From positions 1 to 20,824 of IMG/VR virus record IMGVR_UViG_3300023210_000277: a stretch of DNA of 20,824 nt; one strand, written 5' to 3'. This document shows, piece by piece, positions 3,673-15,573 of this stretch (the first letter of the stretch is position 1; each line of letters starts with the position of its first letter). Source of the stretch: a virus. Below the pieces are notes generated by a model that was not told the DNA's origin, made no database searches, and saw only the letters and a program-made list of their open reading frames with translations. The translations under genes were made by a program, and so were the position numbers.

Positions 3673-4120
3673 GATAGCAAGAAAAGTTGGTAAGTCTGTT
3701 GAAGAAGTAAGAATTGGTTTTACCTGTTCTACTTTTGATTTATTACATGCTGGTCATATTGTAATGCTACAAGAAGCTAAAGAGCTTTGTGATTATCTCA
3801 TTTGCGGGTTATTAACCGATCCTACGGTTGACCGTCCTGATTCAAAAAATAAACCAATCCAAACTCCGTTTGAACGATATGTTCAATTGGCGGGTTGTCG
3901 TTTTGTTGATGAAGTCATTCCATTCAGTACAGAACAAGAAATCGTTGATATGATTTTAACTATTCAACCACACATTAGAATCGTTGGCGAAGAATATAAA
4001 GGCACAGATCATACTGGTGTTGGCTTATGTTCTATTCACTATAACAAACGTAAGCACTCGTTTTCATCTACAGATTTAAGGAATCGTGTAGTAGAAGCAA
4101 GTGCAGGAGAAAATAAATGA
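3653..4120 (+). CDS. Cytidylyltransferase-like nucleotidyltransferase (TagD/RfaE2 type)
   Basis: This protein of 155 residues has the nucleotidyltransferase signature G-F-T-C-S-T-F-D-L-L-H32-A-G-H35 and, near the end, S-S-T-D-L-R, the second nucleotide-binding motif. Size and motifs fit the family that makes CDP-glycerol, CDP-ethanolamine, CDP-choline or ADP/CDP-sugars from a phosphorylated precursor. The substrate cannot be chosen from sequence. The preferred start is ATG 3653. A TTG six bases upstream keeps the same frame, but a GGAG at 3639-3642 is better spaced for the ATG. The gene overlaps the kinase fusion and its stop overlaps the methyltransferase ATG (ATGA), so all three are translationally coupled. 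It probably acts on the product of the upstream kinase. Confidence 0.8.
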   Translation: MFTNKAEIARKVGKSVEEVRIGFTCSTFDLLHAGHIVMLQEAKELCDYLICGLLTDPTVDRPDSKNKPIQTPFERYVQLAGCRFVDEVIPFSTEQEIVDMILTIQPHIRIVGEEYKGTDHTGVGLCSIHYNKRKHSFSSTDLRNRVVEASAGENK

Positions 4121-5325
4121 CTTATACATACGCATCCATCGTACCCTTAATTGGTGGTGAAACTCTCGCAATGCAAAGCGTTTTTGGTAAACGACCAGAG
4201 TATATTTTATCTTATGATGTGTTTGCTGGTAACGATAAACACTTATTAGAATATTATAATTATGAAGTACCGTATCATGTTTTAGACAAAGATGATATGT
4301 CAAAGGTTAACCTTGAACAGGTGGACGTAGTTAATACTGTATGTCCTTGTGCTGGGTTAAGTTCGTTGAGTGTTTCTGCTAGTGCTGACTCATCTGTTAA
4401 TGATTGGATGATTAATACTACTAAACATGTATTAGAGAATATGCAACCAAAGGTTTTTTGGGGTGAGAATGCTCCACGTCTTGCAACTAAAATGGGTTCA
4501 CCGGTTGTCGAGAAGATACGTAAGATTGGAAAGGAGTATGGTTATACCTTTTCGATATACAAAACAAAGAGTCTATTGCATGGCTTAAGTCAGGTAAGAG
4601 ATAGAACTTTCTACTTCTTTTGGAAAGGTGATGAAATACCGTTGTTTGATTATTATAATAGACCTAATCAAAACATGTGTGAAATGATTAGATCAGTACC
4701 AAGCGATCCGGCTGACCCAATGAATGTGCTTACATCTAACAAAGTGCCTTCACAAGATGATCATTACTATAAATTTATTCTTGAAGAGATTTGTGGTGGT
4801 ATTACCCATAAAGAATTTGTGGCCAGTCTTGAGCCAGGTCGAAGTGTTAATCCCCAATTGTATATAGAGAAACACAGTGATTATACTAAAGTTGCTGATT
4901 GGTTAATAAAGAATGGTAATCCAAAGGCTGCAGATAAAGCATTGAGAAATGCAGAGAAAATTGCTGGTGGTGGTAACCTTATGAGACGTACCAGTGAAAT
5001 CCCATCTGATTATACAGGTGCTTTCGTTGGACATCTTCCTATGCGCGTAACACACCCTGATGAAGATCGATACTTAACATATCGTGAAGCTATGGAGTTT
5101 ATGAAGTTGCCTAGAGACTTTAATATCATTAGCCCTAAGAAGAATCTTAATCATATCTGTCAGAATGTACCTCTCACGACAGCAGCTGATATGGCAACTA
5201 ATATTAAACGGTATTTAGAAGGGACATGTGAAATGATTAGAGATGATTATCTTATTCAAGACAATAAATCTAAGAAGCTAGTTATGACAAATAGGTCAAG
5301 TTCTTTAGAAGAATTTTTAAAATAA
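4117..5325 (+). CDS. C5-cytosine DNA methyltransferase-like protein
   Basis: The 402-residue protein retains a recognisable order of m5C-methyltransferase motifs. An atypical motif I region is I-V-P-L-I-G-G-E-T (8-16). Motif IV is V-C76-P-C78-A-G-L-S-S-L-S with Cys78 as expected nucleophile. Motif VI is E117-N-A-P (usually ENV), and motif VIII is Q159-V-R-D-R163. Motif IX is R-Y-L-T-Y-R-E-A (about 318-325) and motif X is N350-V-P-L-T-T-A. About 155 residues between motifs VIII and IX would be the target-recognition domain. It may methylate cytosine at C5. Since the phage should carry hmC, it may instead act on residual or host cytosine, or on an altered base. The Gln after the catalytic Cys is replaced by Ala. 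An AGGAGA ribosome site precedes the start. Confidence 0.75.
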   Translation: MTYTYASIVPLIGGETLAMQSVFGKRPEYILSYDVFAGNDKHLLEYYNYEVPYHVLDKDDMSKVNLEQVDVVNTVCPCAGLSSLSVSASADSSVNDWMINTTKHVLENMQPKVFWGENAPRLATKMGSPVVEKIRKIGKEYGYTFSIYKTKSLLHGLSQVRDRTFYFFWKGDEIPLFDYYNRPNQNMCEMIRSVPSDPADPMNVLTSNKVPSQDDHYYKFILEEICGGITHKEFVASLEPGRSVNPQLYIEKHSDYTKVADWLIKNGNPKAADKALRNAEKIAGGGNLMRRTSEIPSDYTGAFVGHLPMRVTHPDEDRYLTYREAMEFMKLPRDFNIISPKKNLNHICQNVPLTTAADMATNIKRYLEGTCEMIRDDYLIQDNKSKKLVMTNRSSSLEEFLK

Positions 5326-6426: not shown

Positions 6427-7778
6427 ATTTAGAAACATTAATATTACGTAACTTAATTCAAGATGAAAATTATACTAGAACAGTAATACCTCATATCAAG
6501 CCAAAATACTTTAATGGTCCTCATAAGATTTTATTCAATGAGATTGTTAAGTTTGTTACTGAATATAGTAAAATGCCTAACGTTGAAGCACTTAATGTTG
6601 AGCTTCAGAAGAATGGTAATATCCATCAAGATGAAATCGGTGAAGTGTTTGCTATCGCTAATGATTTGGATAAAGTGATTGAAGATACTAATGCAGAATG
6701 GTTAACGAAACAAACTGAGAAGTGGTGTCAAGATAGATCTATTTACCTTGCCATTATGGAATCTATTGATATTATTGATGGTAAGCATGACACACTTCAA
6801 AACAATGCATTGCCTGAATTATTAAGTGATGCATTAGGTGTTTCATTTGATACTAACATTGGCCATGACTATATTGATAACTCCGATGATCGCTATGAGT
6901 TTTATCATAGAGAGGAAGAACATTTACCGTTTGACTTAGAGATGTTTAATAAGATCACTAAAGGTGGACTTGTTAACAAGAGTTTGAATATTGCCCTTGC
7001 AGGCACGGGCGTAGGTAAGTCTTTGTTTATGTGTCATGTAGCTGCAGGTGCTTTAACACAGATGAAAAATGTGTTATACATATCTATGGAAATGTCCGAA
7101 GAAAGAGTTGCTGAACGTATTGATGCTAATCTGATGAATGTACCTATTGACCAGTTAGAGAACTTAAGTAAAGATATGTTCGATAAGAAGTTACATAAGA
7201 TTGCTAACGTCGGTATTGGTAAGTTGATTGTTAAAGAATATCCTACAGGTGCTGCTAATGCTTCTCACTTCAGAGCCTTACTTAATGAGTTGAAGTTAAA
7301 GAAGGACTTCATACCAGATTTGATTTGTGTTGATTATCTAAACATTTGTTCTAGTAGTAGAATGAAAGCTGACGGTGCTGGTGGGTCATATCAATATGTT
7401 AAAGCCATTGCTGAAGAGCTACGTGGCTTGGCTATTGAGAATAACCTACCTATACTATCCGCGACTCAAACAACACGCGGTGGTTATGGTAATTCAGATG
7501 TAGGACTTGAAGATACTTCGGAATCATTTGGTCTACCAGCAACGGCAGATCTAATGTTTGCTTTAATCTCTACTGAAGAGTTGGAGAATCTAAATCAAAT
7601 AATGGTGAAGCAATTAAAGAATAGATATAACGATCCAACAGGAGCTACAAAGAAATTTGTCGTTGGAATTGATCGAGCTAAGATGAGATTGTATGATGTC
7701 GAAGACTCTGCACAATCGTTAAATTTGGGTACTGTTCAAGCAAGTACCACTAACAACTTTGAAGGATTTACAGTATAA
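6423..7778 (+). CDS. 41: DnaB-family replicative helicase (T4 gp41-like)
   Basis: This hexameric 5'-3' helicase of the replisome should unwind the fork and partner with a primase encoded elsewhere. The 451 residues start with a helical N-terminal domain. Next come a linker and a RecA-like core with Walker A A-G-T-G-V-G-K199-S200, I-S-M-E-M-S (DnaB motif 1a), and Walker B I-C-V-D-Y-L-N. The A-T-Q-T-T-R-G-G motif 3 follows, with R-A-K-M-R near the C-terminus. Size is close to T4 gp41 (475 aa). It is coupled to uvsX upstream and to thyX downstream (TAATG). No inteins or frame breaks are seen. Confidence 0.92.
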   Translation: MNLETLILRNLIQDENYTRTVIPHIKPKYFNGPHKILFNEIVKFVTEYSKMPNVEALNVELQKNGNIHQDEIGEVFAIANDLDKVIEDTNAEWLTKQTEKWCQDRSIYLAIMESIDIIDGKHDTLQNNALPELLSDALGVSFDTNIGHDYIDNSDDRYEFYHREEEHLPFDLEMFNKITKGGLVNKSLNIALAGTGVGKSLFMCHVAAGALTQMKNVLYISMEMSEERVAERIDANLMNVPIDQLENLSKDMFDKKLHKIANVGIGKLIVKEYPTGAANASHFRALLNELKLKKDFIPDLICVDYLNICSSSRMKADGAGGSYQYVKAIAEELRGLAIENNLPILSATQTTRGGYGNSDVGLEDTSESFGLPATADLMFALISTEELENLNQIMVKQLKNRYNDPTGATKKFVVGIDRAKMRLYDVEDSAQSLNLGTVQASTTNNFEGFTV

Positions 7779-8491
7779 TGAAAAGAACAAATAATATAAA
7801 AACAGTAGATAAGGTAGCAGCACCAGTAACACACACCACAAGAACAAAAGCAACGTTAGTGAGTTATTCAACACCGTCAGAAGAGTTTAAAGAAGAAGGT
7901 TTGGATGATGTAAAAGACTTAGTTGCATACTGTGCTAGAGTAAGTAATCCATCCAACCAGCTTAATAAAGAGACCGCTGATAAGTTAATTGGGTACTTGA
8001 TTAAACACCAACATTGGTCTCCATTAGAGATGGTAAGTGCTTGTATTGAAATTGAAACTACAAGAGATATTGCACGTCAAATCCTAAGACATAGATCATT
8101 TTCTTTCCAAGAGTTCTCTCAACGATATGCCGATCCTACTAAAGACCTATCATTTATGTTAAGAGAAGCTAGGTTACAAGATACTAAGAATAGACAGAAC
8201 TCTATTGAAAATAACAATGAAGTATTAAGTGCTATGTGGAGAATCAAACAAGAGAACGTTATTAAAAATGCACTTAGCGCTTATAATTGGGCTATTGAGA
8301 ATGGTATTGCTAAAGAACAAGCCAGAGCAGTATTGCCTGAAGGTAACACTATGAGTAGGATGTATATGAATGGAACTATTAGAAGTTGGATTCATTACAT
8401 CGACCTACGATCTAAGAATGGAACTCAAAAAGAACATATTGAAGTTGCATTAGCGTGTGCTCAAGCCATTGATAAAATCTTTAAATTATGA
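7778..8491 (+). CDS. thyX: Flavin-dependent thymidylate synthase ThyX
   Basis: The product makes dTMP from dUMP using FAD, NADPH and methylene-tetrahydrofolate. The diagnostic ThyX motif R104-H-R-x-x-S109-x-x-E112-x-S114-x-R116-Y117 is complete. Downstream are A-R-A-V-L-P (dUMP/flavin region) and S-W-I-H-Y-I-D-L-R, both typical of the family. The 237 residues are a normal length, with about 25 extra low-complexity residues at the N-terminus. ThyX replaces the ThyA of T4, while the ThyA-fold enzyme in this genome has been diverted to dCMP hydroxymethylation. The start overlaps the helicase stop by one base, and the stop overlaps the deaminase start by four. Confidence 0.95.
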   Translation: MKRTNNIKTVDKVAAPVTHTTRTKATLVSYSTPSEEFKEEGLDDVKDLVAYCARVSNPSNQLNKETADKLIGYLIKHQHWSPLEMVSACIEIETTRDIARQILRHRSFSFQEFSQRYADPTKDLSFMLREARLQDTKNRQNSIENNNEVLSAMWRIKQENVIKNALSAYNWAIENGIAKEQARAVLPEGNTMSRMYMNGTIRSWIHYIDLRSKNGTQKEHIEVALACAQAIDKIFKL

Positions 8492-10056: not shown

Positions 10057-11124
10057 ATGAAACTAGTAATACTAACCAAAGACGTTAAGTCTGAAACTGT
10101 TGAGCGTCTATCCACCGAAATGACTAAAACCGGTGGTGAAGTTTATGCGGTAAACCTTGAAGGTGCCTACCTTAAAGACAATAAGATATTCAACATCGAT
10201 GATAAGAAGGGATTTGAAATATCCCCTCAAGATACAGTCGTTGCTGTTCGCGGGTCAATCACCCTTAAAGACTCTTATTTAGACCTACTATCTCAAATAG
10301 AAAAACGAAAAATCATGACGGTCAACAACCGCTTGTGTAATGAGATATGTGCTGATAAATTCAGAACTTCAATTATCCTCGATGAGGCTGGTATAGCTCA
10401 ACCTAAGACCGCCTTAATTGCTATTGGTGATAATATCAAAACCAATTACCCTGAGCAAGCATTTAACAAACTAGATACTAAATTCCCAGTTATTCTTAAA
10501 ACCCTACGTGGTGCTAAAGGTATCGGTGTATTGCTTATTGAGAGTATGCAAGCTTTAGAATCTACTACCCAATTATTATATAAGCTTGATGAAAGCTCTG
10601 ATTTGTTATTACAAGAATATATTAAATCAGACTTTGATATTAGAGTGCATGTATTAAATGGTGAAATCATTGGGGTTATGCGACGCAACGTGCCAGATGA
10701 TGATTTTAGATCAAATTACGCGCAAGGTGCAACCACTGAAAAATATAAGCTATCTAAGAAAGAAGAGGAAGTTGCACTAGCAGCTGCTAACGCCGTTAGT
10801 GGTTATTGGGTTGGGGTAGATTTTATTCCTAATAAGGGTAATCCATTAGTACTTGAAGTGAATTCATCAGCAGGCACTGAGGGCATCGAGCAGACTATTG
10901 GATCATCTATTAATAGAAAAGTAATTAAAACCATAACTAACTCAGATAATTGGATTAAAGCTAAAACTGTGATTGGTGTTAGAGAAATATTTGAATTTGA
11001 TTTGTTTGGTAAGATGAAGGCCAAATTAGATACTGGCAATTCTGTTAAGACTCTTGTTATGCATGCCGACGATCTTGTAGTTAAAAATGATAAAGTAACC
11101 TTTACATCCCACGGCCGTGAATAA
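10057..11124 (+). CDS. rimK: RimK-like ATP-grasp ligase fused to the N-terminal half of a RimB-like retropepsin domain
   Basis: Residues 1-~285 match the RimK family, which adds glutamates to ribosomal protein S6 in bacteria. The segments F-D-I-R-V-H-V-L-N-G-E, D-D-D-F-R-S-N, V-G-V-D-F-I-P and P-L-V-L-E-V-N-S-S-A-G-T-E-G-I-E match E. coli RimK block by block, including the ATP/Mg-binding D and E-x-N. From about residue 305 a different domain begins, V-I-G-V-R-E-I-F-E..K-M-K-A-K-L-D325-T-G-N-S. This is the start of the ATP-dependent zinc protease/RimB family (retropepsin-like, catalytic D-T-G). The domain stops after T-S-H-G-R-E, midway, and its second half is the next gene. A late-type promoter abuts the start. 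Phage control of S6 glutamylation is a plausible role, not shown by the sequence. Confidence 0.82.
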   Translation: MKLVILTKDVKSETVERLSTEMTKTGGEVYAVNLEGAYLKDNKIFNIDDKKGFEISPQDTVVAVRGSITLKDSYLDLLSQIEKRKIMTVNNRLCNEICADKFRTSIILDEAGIAQPKTALIAIGDNIKTNYPEQAFNKLDTKFPVILKTLRGAKGIGVLLIESMQALESTTQLLYKLDESSDLLLQEYIKSDFDIRVHVLNGEIIGVMRRNVPDDDFRSNYAQGATTEKYKLSKKEEEVALAAANAVSGYWVGVDFIPNKGNPLVLEVNSSAGTEGIEQTIGSSINRKVIKTITNSDNWIKAKTVIGVREIFEFDLFGKMKAKLDTGNSVKTLVMHADDLVVKNDKVTFTSHGRE

Positions 11125-11126
11125 CA

Positions 11127-11357
11127 ATGAAGCTGTATGGTATTAAAAAGATTAGATTAAATGGCGACAATGGATTAGAAGAGAGGCCTATGGTTATGTT
11201 AGACTTTACCTTTAATGGTGTTATTCATAAGAATGTAACCTTTACTTTAGATGATAGATCGACAAAAACAACTGAGGTATTAGTGAATAAAGATTGGATG
11301 ATTGATAACTCATTCATCATCGATCCTAGTCTGATGTATACTTTAGGAGAATTATAA
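11127..11357 (+). CDS. C-terminal half of a RimB-like (DUF785) retropepsin domain, separate gene
   Basis: The 76 residues contain E-E-R-P-M-V-M-L-D-F, a strand pair T-F-N-G-V-I-H-K-N-V-T-F-T-L-D-D-R-S, then W-M..N-S-F-I-I-D-P-S. This follows the family pattern (R-P-x-V-E-L..L-x-D-R-S..F-L-V-D-P-S) seen after the D-T-G half in one-piece RimB/zinc-protease proteins. It begins two bases after the stop of the RimK fusion in another frame. That frame is closed by a TGA at 11118-11120, so a simple single-base error does not obviously rejoin them. The two products probably assemble into one domain. There is no strong ribosome site, so coupling to the upstream stop is likely. Confidence 0.65.
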   Translation: MKLYGIKKIRLNGDNGLEERPMVMLDFTFNGVIHKNVTFTLDDRSTKTTEVLVNKDWMIDNSFIIDPSLMYTLGEL

Positions 11358-11365: not shown

Positions 11366-12238
11366 ATGCATAATTTTAAAAGCTTTTTAGACGAAGGTAA
11401 ATCTGAGATGTTATCAGAGAAACTTATCATGTTGAATAATGGCCGTAAAGACGGCCAAATCGTATTCCTCGCGGGTGGTGCTGGTTCTGGTAAGGGATTT
11501 GCTGCTACAAACTTCATGGAGAAGGAAAAGTTTAAGGTAAGAGATGTTGATGAGTGGAAGAAAGTGTTTCAAAAGATTGCTGATACTCAAGCAAAGTATC
11601 CAGAAATAAAAGGATTAGACATGAAGAAACCTGCTGATGTTGCTAAGCTTCATATGTTCATTAAGAAACTTGGTCTTAAAGATAAGACACTTGACTTAAT
11701 GTTAGGGCAACTTAAAGATAGAAAGAAGTTACCTAATATCATGTTTGATATTACGGCTAAAGACACTAAAGATGTATCTCAATTCCTTCCAAGATTATTA
11801 GCAGCTGGTTATAACCCTGCCAACATTCATTTAGTATGGGTGTTAACCGATTATAAAATTGCGATTAAGCAGAATGCAGATAGAGATAGAGTTGTGCCTT
11901 CTGACATTATGTTGCAAACACATAAAGGCGCATCTGAAACTGTGTACTCATATGTCACAGGAGAAGGTAAGAAGATGCAAATTAATGGTGAGATACATGT
12001 AATTTTAAATAACAAAGAAAACACCGTTATGTTTACTCCTTCAGGCAATGATAGAACTTCTAAGATAAGTGGTAAGAAGAATGGCGTAGTTGTTAAAGAC
12101 TTTACATACTTAACATTAAAGAAACGCGGCAAAGCACTGATCAAAATAGATAAGGTAATGAAACAACTATACTATTGGGTAGTGGATAATATACCAAAGT
12201 CCGATTTTCAAAAAGCATTAACGGATACAATTAAGTAA
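11366..12238 (+). CDS. Capsid-targeted P-loop kinase-like protein (zeta-toxin/AAA type)
   Basis: The N-terminus M-H-N-F-K-S-F-L-D-E followed by Gly resembles the T4 capsid-targeting peptide (MKTYQEFIAE, then Ala). Its L-x-E is a prohead-protease-type site, so cleavage after Glu10 is predicted. After it comes a P-loop kinase: beta strand I-V-F-L-A then G37-G-A-G-S-G-K43-G (Walker A). V-R-D-V-D-E-W and P-N-I-M-F-D-I-T-A-K-D are likely the acceptor and Walker B regions. Length 290 aa. The fold suggests phosphoryl transfer to a small molecule, protein or nucleic acid, and the substrate is unknown. The C-terminal ~100 residues are beta-rich and unassigned. It is the first of four genes with such N-termini in this block. 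Confidence 0.7.
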   Translation: MHNFKSFLDEGKSEMLSEKLIMLNNGRKDGQIVFLAGGAGSGKGFAATNFMEKEKFKVRDVDEWKKVFQKIADTQAKYPEIKGLDMKKPADVAKLHMFIKKLGLKDKTLDLMLGQLKDRKKLPNIMFDITAKDTKDVSQFLPRLLAAGYNPANIHLVWVLTDYKIAIKQNADRDRVVPSDIMLQTHKGASETVYSYVTGEGKKMQINGEIHVILNNKENTVMFTPSGNDRTSKISGKKNGVVVKDFTYLTLKKRGKALIKIDKVMKQLYYWVVDNIPKSDFQKALTDTIK

Positions 12239-12320
12239 ATACTAAGATCGCTTCTTTGGCTAGTCAATTACCAAACAATCCCCAAGTGAAAGCTTGGATG
12301 GATGTAAATTAAGGATATTC
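12239..12320 (+). other. 82-base spacer with GNRA-capped hairpin and a short peptide-like frame
   Basis: The gap before the nuclease-like gene holds a 6-bp stem-loop at 12282-12297 (CCAAGT, GAAA tetraloop, GCTTGG with one G-U pair). It has no T-run, so it is not a standard terminator. One frame between stops reads KIASLASQLPNNPQVKAWMD and then VN, which looks protein-like but has no ATG and no ribosome site. The downstream ATG has its own AAGGA at 12311-12315. Confidence 0.4.
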
Positions 12321-13193
12321 ATGGACAATTTTAAAGGTTATATATTAAACGAAGCAGCTAACAGTAGCTTTCAAGTCATCATTGACGACATGTTGACAGA
12401 TAAAGAAAAGAAGGTGTATGGTAAGTATGATATTCCTAAGAAGAGTTTTAAGTTAAAGCTTCATCCTAAGGATAAGAAGACTTTCATCAAGCTGTTTAAA
12501 GAAGCTCCTGATAAGACAGTTGGTAATGGTGAAGTTTCCTTATATTGGTTGTTTGACGGCAGAGCCCAAGAGACACGTGGTGGTACTGAGCCAGACTTGC
12601 GTATTCATGGTTTGGCTGTTGAAGTAAAAGCATATCCAAAACATGATCCGATATCGTTAGGAAGATTCCAGGATAGACGAGAGTTTAGAGCATTACTAAA
12701 CACTTTGTTTGGCATCTCTAATTTATTCCAAGCCTTCTCAAAAGATAACAGCAAAGGCAATCAATCTTTCAAAGGGGAATTGTCATTCAGATACCCTGAT
12801 GTACTAGAAGCAGCTGAGAAGTTTATTGAATTATCAGAGCTATTCAAGGGCAACAAAGATCTAATGAACTTTAAAATATTTAAAGACATGAAAAAGACTA
12901 CTGATGATTTTGAGAAACAATTGAAAAAGTTGGGATACGGATCCAAGATTAATGATCCTGAAAGCATTGCTGTAGGTTTAATGAAACGCTTGATTGATGT
13001 GTTAGTTGGGGATAAGCCTGGTGATAAAGGATATATTGCTAATGTCAAAGATAGTGATCCAACTGACATTTGGTTCCATTACATAGACTTTAAAAATATG
13101 GTTAACGACACCAAGACTCTATCTAAAAAAGGAACATTTGCTGTTAATGGTGGAACATTCAAGGCATCTTTCAGTACACTGTTTCCTGGATAA
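12321..13193 (+). CDS. Capsid-targeted PD-(D/E)XK nuclease-like protein
   Basis: I chose ATG 12321 over an in-frame ATG at 12294 because AAGGA lies five bases before it and the protein then starts M-D-N-F-K-G-Y-I-L-N-E followed by Ala, a T4 capsid-targeting-like peptide with an L-x-E cleavage site. The 290-residue protein contains G-N-G-E71-V-S-L, then E-P-D92-L-R-I-H-G-L-A-V-E101-V-K103-A-Y. This layout (Glu in a helix, then P-D..E-x-K across a beta hairpin) is that of PD-(D/E)XK endonucleases. The remaining ~185 residues are mostly helical and unassigned. A packaged nuclease would suit attack on unmodified host DNA or DNA processing on entry, but this is inference. Full alignment is needed to confirm the nuclease fold. 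Confidence 0.62.
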   Translation: MDNFKGYILNEAANSSFQVIIDDMLTDKEKKVYGKYDIPKKSFKLKLHPKDKKTFIKLFKEAPDKTVGNGEVSLYWLFDGRAQETRGGTEPDLRIHGLAVEVKAYPKHDPISLGRFQDRREFRALLNTLFGISNLFQAFSKDNSKGNQSFKGELSFRYPDVLEAAEKFIELSELFKGNKDLMNFKIFKDMKKTTDDFEKQLKKLGYGSKINDPESIAVGLMKRLIDVLVGDKPGDKGYIANVKDSDPTDIWFHYIDFKNMVNDTKTLSKKGTFAVNGGTFKASFSTLFPG

Positions 13194-13197
13194 CATA

Positions 13198-14427
13198 ATG
13201 AAATCATTTGAAAGACATTTAGCAGAAGCTAAGAACACACATATGATCCATATCGAGGATATGGTTATTGATGGTGGAGTTGATGGTACACGTGCAGCAA
13301 TCAATGCTCTCCGTGATTTAAGGAATATGTTAGTGGGTCATACCAATGATACTAAAGCTGTTACGGTTAAATGGGATGGAGCACCTGCAGTATTTGCTGG
13401 CATTGATCCTACTGACGGAGAGTTCTTCGTTGCTAAGAAAGGTATCTTTAATAAAAACCCAAAGGTATATAAAAGTCATGATGACATTAACGCTGATACT
13501 TCAGGTGATCTGGCTGCTAAGCTTCGTATAGCATATACTGAATTAAAGAAAGTAGTTACTAAAGGTGTATTTCAAGGTGATATCATGTTCACTAAAGATG
13601 ACCTTAAAGGTGAGACTATTGATGGACAAAGGTATATAACCTTCCACCCCAACACTATTGTATATGCAGTACCTGTAAAGGATGCTAAAGAAGTATTAGC
13701 CGCTAAGATAGGTGTTGTGTGGCATACTAAATATACAGGCTCTTCATTTGCCGGTATGAGTGCTTCATTCAATGTTAAAGATAGTGACTTTATTAAAACA
13801 TCTAAGGTGTGGCAGAAGACTGCGGATTTGCCTGAAGATCATAGTGCAACGTTAAGTGAAAAGGATTCAAATACAATCTATCAACATTTATCTATTGCTG
13901 GTAAATTGTTTAATAAGATTAAATCGTCTACGCTTAAAGAGGTTTCAACAAATAAAGAGATTAATTTATATATTAATACTTTTAGAAACACTAAGGTAAG
14001 AGCTCAATCTGATATCACTAACACCAAGAAGCATACTGAAGAATTAGTACAGTGGATCCATAACCGCTTTGACAAAGAGATTGATAAGCTTAAATCTGAT
14101 AAGGGTAAGGCTAAGAAGAATGCTAAGAAGATTGAAGCATTGGATTGGTTCAATAAAGAAAATACTAAGAATTTAATACTTATGTTTGACATGCAAAATC
14201 ATTTAGTCATCGTTAAGAGAATGTTACTCACGCACTTAGATTCTATAAAAAGTATAAATACCTTTGTAAAGACTAAAAACGGTTTTAAAGTGACAGGCTC
14301 AGAAGGTTATGTTGCTATAGACCATTTAACAAACGGTGCGTATAAGATCGTTAACCGTATGGAATTTAGTTATAACAATTTTAGTAAAGACATAATCAAA
14401 GGATGGGAGTCTGATGCTAGAGGTTAA
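13198..14427 (+). CDS. Capsid-targeted DUF6267-like protein with ligase-type KxDG motif
   Basis: The true start is ATG 13198, four bases after the previous stop. An in-frame upstream extension lies wholly inside the nuclease-like gene. It gives M-K-S-F-E-R-H-L-A-E followed by Ala, a clear match to the T4 capsid-targeting peptide and its cleavage site. The 409-residue body contains T-V-K58-W-D60-G61-A-P-A-V, F-F-V-A-K-K-G (77-82), V-F-Q-G127-D-I-M-F, and W-H-T-K178-Y-T-G. These resemble, in order, motifs I, III/IIIa, IV and V of nucleotidyltransferase-type nucleic-acid ligases. The protein looks like the conserved phage family DUF6267, which lacks an agreed function. The C-terminal half is helical and Lys-rich. 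A ligase or nucleic-acid-capping activity is inference. Confidence 0.65.
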   Translation: MKSFERHLAEAKNTHMIHIEDMVIDGGVDGTRAAINALRDLRNMLVGHTNDTKAVTVKWDGAPAVFAGIDPTDGEFFVAKKGIFNKNPKVYKSHDDINADTSGDLAAKLRIAYTELKKVVTKGVFQGDIMFTKDDLKGETIDGQRYITFHPNTIVYAVPVKDAKEVLAAKIGVVWHTKYTGSSFAGMSASFNVKDSDFIKTSKVWQKTADLPEDHSATLSEKDSNTIYQHLSIAGKLFNKIKSSTLKEVSTNKEINLYINTFRNTKVRAQSDITNTKKHTEELVQWIHNRFDKEIDKLKSDKGKAKKNAKKIEALDWFNKENTKNLILMFDMQNHLVIVKRMLLTHLDSIKSINTFVKTKNGFKVTGSEGYVAIDHLTNGAYKIVNRMEFSYNNFSKDIIKGWESDARG

Positions 14428-14758
14428 TGAAGCTTTAAATGCTATACAACGTGCGAAGATGAAAATGGCTTTTAAGAAAAGCGCATCTAAGCGTAAGATA
14501 GGTCAGAAGAAAGCTTTAAACAAAGTTGCTAGTGGTGATAAACTTAAAGACCTGGCTCACAAAAAAGCTAAAGACATAATTATTAAAAAGATACTCAAAG
14601 GTAAGAGTAAGTCAGACCTACCAATAGCAGCCCGAGATAAGCTAGAAAAGAAAGTTAAAAAGAAGGCAGGAGTTATTGCTAAACTAGCTAAGAAGATCAT
14701 GCCTAAAGTTAAAGCTGGTAATAAGGCTAGAGTAGCAGCACATGAGGCAAATAAATGA
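14414..14758 (+). CDS. Small, highly basic conserved phage protein, 114 aa
   Basis: The 114 residues are rich in Lys, Ala and Arg, with repeated K-K-x-x patterns (AFKKSASKRKIGQKKALNKV; LEKKVKKKAGVIAKLAKKIM). They are predicted to be helical. Similar basic proteins sit beside DUF6267-like genes in marine T4-like phages. A DNA-binding, head-core or internal-head role is plausible from charge and context, but not shown. A GGGAG site five bases before the ATG and a 14-base overlap with the gene before support the start. The stop overlaps the next ATG (ATGA). Unlike its neighbours, it has no capsid-targeting-like N-terminus. Confidence 0.7.
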   Translation: MLEVNEALNAIQRAKMKMAFKKSASKRKIGQKKALNKVASGDKLKDLAHKKAKDIIIKKILKGKSKSDLPIAARDKLEKKVKKKAGVIAKLAKKIMPKVKAGNKARVAAHEANK

Positions 14759-15573
14759 TTCACGGATTTAAGGAACACTACTTAAAGGAAGAAGCTGCGA
14801 AAGAGGTTGTTATTACCTTTGGTAGATTCAATCCGCCCACAAACGGCCACGAGAAGTTACTTGATAAAGTAGCTAAAGTAGCTAAAGGGGCCTACCGCGT
14901 ATATTCATCACAGTCACAAGATGCAAAGAAGAACCCGTTAGGATTCACTGATAAAGTTAAGTTTATGCGGAAGATGTTTCCTAAGCATGCAAGATCAATC
15001 TTATTAGATAAGTCTGTTCGTGACTTCTTTCAAGCATTATCTGCGACGTATGCTGATGGATTTACCAAATGTACTATTGTCGTTGGTTCGGATAGAGTTA
15101 AAGAATTTGATAAAATCTTAAATAAGTATAATGGTACTAAAGGTAAGCATGGATTCTATGATTTTGATGGTGGCGTGAATGTAGTTTCTGCAGGAGAACG
15201 TGACCCTGACTCGGACGATGTATCTGGCATGTCAGCTTCTAAACTTAGAGCTGCGGCTAAAGATAACGATCTTATTACATTTTCTAAAGGAATGCCTAAA
15301 GGATTCAAAGGTGCTGAATCATTAATGAATTCTGTTAGAGCTGGCTTAGGTCTTAAAGAAACATACGTATACAAGCAAGAAACAAAATTAAAGAGACTTT
15401 CAGTGTTAAGAGAGAAGTACATTAAAGGGAATCTATTTGAGGTCGGTGATGAAGTAATTATCGTCGAATCTCATGAGCGGGCTATTATAAATAAATTATG
15501 TAGCAATTATGTAGAAGTTAATATTAATGGAGAGACAAAGAATGTTTGGATCTCTGATATATGCAAGGAATAA
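14755..15573 (+). CDS. Capsid-targeted nucleotidyltransferase (NMNAT/cytidylyltransferase fold) with SH3-like tail
   Basis: The N-terminus M-I-H-G-F-K-E-H-Y-L-K-E is again a targeting-like peptide ending in L-x-E. Residues 18-32 are V-V-I-T-F-G-R-F-N-P-P-T-N-G-H, the nucleotide-binding motif of NMN adenylyltransferases and relatives (T-x-G-H instead of H-x-G-H). Near residue 158 G-M-S-A-S-K-L-R matches the second motif (I-S-x-T-x-x-R). The C-terminal ~45 residues (F-E-V-G-D-E-V-I-I-V, N-Y-V-E-V-N-I-N-G-E) look like a small KOW/SH3-like beta domain. Length is 272 aa. The reaction should join NTP to a phosphorylated small molecule, such as NMN to NAD. The substrate is not determinable. Delivery with the DNA could alter host NAD or nucleotide metabolism at entry. 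Confidence 0.72.
   Translation: MIHGFKEHYLKEEAAKEVVITFGRFNPPTNGHEKLLDKVAKVAKGAYRVYSSQSQDAKKNPLGFTDKVKFMRKMFPKHARSILLDKSVRDFFQALSATYADGFTKCTIVVGSDRVKEFDKILNKYNGTKGKHGFYDFDGGVNVVSAGERDPDSDDVSGMSASKLRAAAKDNDLITFSKGMPKGFKGAESLMNSVRAGLGLKETYVYKQETKLKRLSVLREKYIKGNLFEVGDEVIIVESHERAIINKLCSNYVEVNINGETKNVWISDICKE

Follow-up and report, generated by a model that had tools for sequence, protein, structure and literature searches.

Among described systems, the internal proteins IPI, IPII and IPIII of bacteriophage T4 are some of the closest to the protein considered here. They carry an N-terminal tag of about 10 residues with aromatic residues at positions 4 and 7 and an L/I-x-E↓A junction (the arrow marks cleavage), and their gene content is exchangeable between relatives. 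The first ten residues of IPIII are all that its packaging needs; in the T4 capsid-targeting sequence (CTS), positions 4 and 7 are important for targeting and 8 and 10 for processing, and gp21 cleaves after L/I-X-E (PMC9026906). The T4 internal proteins are small and basic, and IPI inhibits a host nuclease, whereas the putative cargo described below is itself an enzyme of nuclease type. A nuclease has been brought into the T4 head through a CTS as a staphylococcal nuclease-IPIII fusion (PMC3012670, PMC9026906), which is engineered and not natural.

Here, we analyze a predicted PD-(D/E)XK-type nuclease precursor encoded at positions 12321-13193 (+) of a genome fragment of 20,824 bases from an uncultivated virus ("the window"). 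The source phage is marine, and its placement as T4-like is based on the window's gene content (UvsX, a gp41-type helicase, ThyX, dCMP deaminase, NrdA/NrdB, and gp42-like and AGT-like proteins) and on the sequence of two close relatives (contigs L129 and L132), in which DNA polymerase, sliding clamp and clamp loader were identified by eye. The open reading frame is genuine, with an ATG start, AAGGA a few bases 5' of it and a TAA stop closing a 290-residue product. It is under strong purifying selection, with 128 synonymous versus 33 non-synonymous codon differences to the L009 homologue. Around it are genes of replication and nucleotide metabolism, UvsX, gp41, ThyX and dCMP deaminase before and NrdA/NrdB after, and no head genes are adjacent. 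Its assignment draws on the reading frame, family alignments and an AlphaFold2 model.

The N-terminal tag and its predicted processing site

The first-pass annotation described a capsid-targeting-like N-terminus, and the T4 rule bears this out. The N-terminal stretch, MDNFKGYILNEAANSS, begins with the predicted propeptide MDNFKGYILNE (residues 1-11; 12321-12353, +), in which F4, Y7 and L9-N-E11↓A12 match the T4 layout and cleavage is predicted after E11. Residues 1-12 are disordered in the AlphaFold2 model (pLDDT < 50). The (L/I)xE↓A junction is kept in all seven close homologues (as LNE, LNE, LYE, INE, IVE, IVE and LKE), while the length and sequence of the tail diverge. Across the family, [LI]xE precedes the domain in 46 of 47 members versus 26.5 expected by shuffling, a count informative mainly for short tails because such triplets arise by chance in long N-termini.

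Four of the 28 window proteins have aromatic-plus-(L/I)xE N-termini, and their genes form a single run (11366-15573). The nuclease is preceded by a P-loop (zeta-toxin-like) kinase with the CTS-like N-terminus MHNFKSFLDE↓G (11366-12238, +; PF06414 E=3.9e-5, phrog_5268 E=2.6e-51) and followed by a DUF6267 protein with MKSFERHLAE↓A (13198-14427, +; PF19782 E=6.7e-94) and a cytidylyltransferase-like protein with the CTS-like N-terminus MIHGFKEHYLKE (14755-15573, +; PF01467, phrog_395). Among the other 24 window proteins only NrdB has the tag layout, which is expected in about 4% of random N-termini. The kinase has a homologue in RB43-like phages that was once annotated as a head morphogenesis protein.

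A candidate protease is encoded by relatives. We found a gp21-type prohead protease (Peptidase_S77, PF03420) in 13 of 19 tested family contigs, including all eleven longer than 60 kb and 13 of the 14 longer than 48 kb, and it lies on the nuclease strand in each of 12 mapped contigs. In distant family members the nuclease gene is 13.5-23.5 kb upstream of the protease gene (10 of 12). The window carries no protease gene; like its close relatives, it is a fragment that does not cover that part of the genome. Further evidence comes from cyanophages. Prochlorococcus phage P-HM2 keeps the order gp41, MazG, slot protein, DUF6267 and cytidylyltransferase, the last labeled T4-GC190, and mass spectrometry has identified T4-GC190 in virions of S-SM1 (PMC3037559). 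This detection supports packaging of a cassette neighbor, not of the nuclease itself. The earlier proposal that the nuclease travels with the phage DNA thus gains circumstantial support from the tag, the kept cleavage site, the protease of relatives and a virion-detected cassette protein of cyanophages. We regard packaging through the tag as quite probable, and judge that the nuclease is likely both packaged and ejected.

Active site, predicted fold and family

The residues proposed as a PD-(D/E)XK active site were located as claimed. E71, the helix glutamate of a GxGE motif (12531-12533, +), opens helix 71-77; D92 of the PD motif (P91-D92; D92 at 12594-12596, +) directly precedes strand 93-95; and E101-V-K103 (12621-12629, +) falls within strand 98-103. 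Columns invariant across 47 diverse homologues are I21, G68, G70, E71, D92, E101, K103, G114 and K232, so that all four catalytic residues are included and a chance origin is unlikely; the spaced motif arose in 8 of 20,000 shuffles of the protein. The additional invariant lysine, K232 (KPG; 13014-13016, +), lies between helix 213-229 and strand 238-242. Because VEVKAYP was one of the search patterns and could mimic conservation, we also considered members without this string, which had been retrieved via the GxGE motif. D92, E101 and K103 are present in 36 of these 36 aligned members, and V100, A104, Y105 and P106 are variable there. The GxGE motif, in turn, also occurs in members retrieved by the VEVKAYP or FKxAPDK patterns.

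An AlphaFold2 model built on the 47-sequence alignment (pLDDT 90.4, pTM 0.84) replaced an earlier, poor model from 9 close sequences (pLDDT 61). Its elements run in the order helix 71-77, strands 82-84, 93-95, 98-103 and 111-115, helix 120-139, a helical insertion, helix 213-229, and strands 238-242 and 250-254, an order that fits the expected PD-(D/E)XK core plus an insertion. Foldseek returned no solved PD-(D/E)XK relative (best PDB match E=1.2), although this whole-chain search may miss a small, interrupted core; its best viral matches (E=0.026) are unannotated. Structure prediction thus recovered the core element order, and structure comparison gave no match to a PD-(D/E)XK structure. Like members of the superfamily, the protein combines a helix glutamate, PD and ExK with a predicted alpha-beta-beta-beta...alpha-beta order. 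It differs in its large helical insertion (residues ~158-203), in the extra invariant K232 and in lacking detectable sequence or fold similarity to any solved or named family. Residue invariance and the order of predicted core elements strongly support the PD-(D/E)XK reading, and we consider the protein very probably a PD-(D/E)XK nuclease with predicted catalytic activity.

This putative nuclease is a member of a large, previously undescribed virus-encoded family, as judged from sequence comparison. Close relatives are 85-100% identical to it and a second group 60-64%, and the 47 diverse members show 25-37% identity outside the window protein's own clade. Iterated profile-derived scans yielded 144 family loci in viral contigs, of which 80 were retained, some on contigs of 156-164 kb, and the window protein has a direct blastp match to all 93 extracted family members. 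The protein and its profiles gave nothing significant against Pfam, PHROGs, NCBIfam or PDB sequences; phrog_19855 (E=0.0079) and other weak PHROG matches were disregarded because they fall outside the nuclease core. No cellular relatives appeared when 84,980 bacterial and archaeal genomes were scanned twice with short conserved patterns, which leaves absence unproven. In cultured phages, tblastn with the window protein and three relatives as queries gave no match; searches with L027 and L035 produced chance matches only, and a search with L033 led to Flavobacterium phage vB_FspM_immuto. Its gp193 (QQO91872.1, hypothetical protein; HMM E=1.3e-19) is the only cultured-phage homologue found. It keeps GxGE, GD and EIK but is very distant from the window nuclease, being 353 residues long with a long N-terminal module, and has no function assigned. 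The gp193 gene lies upstream of those for TerL, gp20 and the prohead protease.

Cassette exchange and the variable slot

Comparison with relatives reveals the nuclease gene as a recently exchanged cassette, a feature not visible to the first-pass annotation. The sister contig L149 is 99.2% identical to the window up to position 12248 and 99.5% identical from 13215, with no match between; in place of the nuclease it holds a different tagged protein of 456 residues (L149:3040-4542, phrog_1462). The nuclease gene is 98.4-98.5% identical to the copies in L004-L008, whose flanking DNA is only ~73-76% identical, and in a phage with a 98.5% identical nuclease copy the other genes are ~67-90% identical to those of the window. 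The exchanged cassette (12249-13214, +) comprises a leader relic, the nuclease gene and the first 17 bases of the DUF6267 gene. Since the right-hand breakpoint falls within the DUF6267 tag codons, the tag was exchanged with the cassette. The ~80 bases 5' of the window nuclease match the 3' end of the P-loop kinase reading frame in L008; they persist here as a non-coding relic (12232-12314, +, aligning to the L008 ORF at 7300-7992), which indicates transfer from an L008-like donor to the window lineage. Further recombination at the locus is apparent from L004 and L005, which agree in the nuclease (100%) and in downstream DNA (99.9%) but diverge upstream (77%).

The window and L008 alleles of the nuclease differ by nine amino-acid-altering codon changes and one silent change, at codons 24, 28, 33, 72, 94, 96-98, 277 and 285, several of them clustered beside the catalytic strand. 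We do not claim selection from this 9:1 excess, as the changes are few and near the neutral site ratio. The tagged P-loop kinase before the nuclease is of two different types among close relatives (window 11366-12238; L008:7300-7992). Further upstream, a RimK-like ATP-grasp protein is a single 433-residue ORF in L149 (848-2149) and two ORFs of 355 and 76 residues in different frames in the window (10057-11357).

With the DUF6267 gene as anchor, the slot 5' of it is hypervariable in relatives. Among 80 DUF6267-anchored viral loci, the nuclease occurs only in the window's relatives, and the rest of those with upstream DNA carry other proteins at this position. F or Y occupies position 4 in 29 of 33 slot proteins versus 19% of background ORFs. 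In many slot proteins a head module of ~90 residues recurs (60-88% identity; profile probability 100%, E=2e-43) and is joined to at least four unrelated C-terminal types (in L166, L167, L182, L195 and others); in L009 it forms a separate small ORF immediately 5' of the nuclease. In one C-terminal type, A7, most of whose members are ~20-29% identical, a D and an SxK are invariant, an arrangement that we take to be reminiscent of PD-(D/E)XK variants. The [SE]xK pattern in slot proteins is indicative only, because the proteins are related and 23% of shuffles match it. Profile comparison detected no homology between the nuclease and alternative slot cargo, so we claim no common origin for them.

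The exchangeable, capsid-targeted cargo slot is the most surprising result of this analysis. As a tentative extension, which we hold to be possible though not favored, marine T4-like phages would have a polymorphic injected-effector locus in which tags, and often the head module, are combined with swapped, unrelated C-terminal domains, many resembling divergent PD-(D/E)XK nucleases (D then [E/S]xK); the window nuclease would be one allele. Such a locus would give a changeable set of packaged DNases against host or rival DNA, with a logic comparable to that of bacterial polymorphic toxins.

Proposed function and alternative explanations

We propose that the product is the precursor of a metal-dependent PD-(D/E)XK nuclease belonging to a new phage family. 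Its first 11 residues would direct it to the prohead core, and a gp21-type protease would cleave after E11; the mature enzyme would then be packaged along with the genome and delivered to the next cell by ejection. Its most likely substrate in that cell would be DNA lacking the phage's protection, from the host chromosome, a plasmid, a satellite or a rival phage. The gene itself would be one alternative cargo of an exchangeable effector slot between the tagged kinase gene and DUF6267. The nuclease may thus be a weapon that is injected alongside the phage genome. We find this explanation as a whole, in which catalysis, packaging, ejection, substrate and self-protection are predicted, moderately probable. 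Its target is less certain, and we put the chance that the ejected enzyme attacks unprotected foreign or host DNA at slightly below even.

A different account, which we consider unlikely, is that the nuclease acts inside the producing cell, either in host DNA breakdown for nucleotides or in DNA processing during replication or packaging; the N-terminal tail would then be no packaging signal, or would only bring the nuclease to the prohead for DNA trimming. The position of the gene between replication and nucleotide-metabolism genes agrees with such a role, and T4-like phages already own a TnsA-like head-completion protein of the PD-(D/E)XK type, gp4 (PF08722). Like gp4, the window nuclease would be a head-associated protein of this type, its head association being predicted. 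However, gp4 has 150 residues and no profile similarity to the nuclease. In two relatives (G004 and G011) a gp4-like protein is encoded as a separate gene beside the protease, so both genes coexist there, and an hhalign probability of 0.2% led us to reject a relationship. The tag-plus-(L/I)xE layout common to the adjacent cassette proteins also argues against a producing-cell nuclease, and a housekeeping role sits poorly with an exchangeable-cargo cassette.

The mobility of the gene raises the question of whether it spreads itself, as a free-standing homing endonuclease does by cutting genomes with another allele and being copied in by repair. The gene-sized conversion tract of near-identical sequence within strongly diverged genomes would suit this explanation, as would its presence or absence among 97-99% identical sisters, a sporadic distribution with a precise mobile tract. 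Yet we found no empty allele, the sister L149 carrying another tagged gene (456 residues); distant members keep the gene on the protease strand, 13.5-23.5 kb upstream of the protease in 10 of 12; tag and cleavage site are conserved; and breakpoints at the following gene's tag codons fit ordinary recombination. We therefore regard self-spreading as improbable. Least probable, in our view, is that the protein retains the fold but is non-catalytic and serves as a structural or DNA-binding component of the head. The silence of Foldseek and the potential self-harm of a packaged DNase speak for it, but dead enzymes usually lose their catalytic residues, and here all four are invariant at 25-37% identity. 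We thus prefer a tagged, packaged and ejected nuclease.

For such a nuclease, the sparing of the phage's own genome becomes an issue. The first-pass annotation had presumed hypermodified phage DNA. The window supports this premise, encoding a dCMP hydroxymethylase (485-1171, +; PF00303) that is 52% identical to T4 gp42 and a DNA alpha-glucosyltransferase (AGT) homologue (1205-2629, +; PF11440 E=2.6e-6, phrog_2888 E=3e-31), and hydroxymethylated, glucosylated cytosine is therefore likely in this phage. The proposal that hypermodification would spare the phage genome does not extend to the family. AGT searches gave no match in immuto or in eight family contigs of 89-164 kb, and the thymidylate synthase family was matched in immuto but in none of those eight. 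Because these large relatives lack both hydroxymethylase and AGT, hypermodification cannot be the family-wide means of self-protection. If the own genome is spared, most members would need other protection, such as another modification, a metal-free head or a sequence preference. Once packaged in active T4, staphylococcal nuclease digested the DNA in the head when calcium was added (PMC3012670), so a packaged nuclease can idle without metal. GTP cyclohydrolase I-, QueD- and QueE-like genes, recognized by eye at L132:5499-8177 (the contig of L012), suggest that a close relative has a pathway for 7-deazaguanine DNA modification, and the window has a C5-cytosine DNA methylase gene (PF00145) at 4117-5325, near the gp42-like and AGT-like genes.

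If this explanation is true, some phages deliver ready-made DNases together with their genome and exchange them from strain to strain, and attack on host or competitor DNA would therefore precede phage gene expression. It would also prompt us to ask what keeps packaged phage DNA safe from the phage's own nuclease. The variable slot beside DUF6267 in many marine T4-like phages would gain a function, as would a large unannotated protein family.
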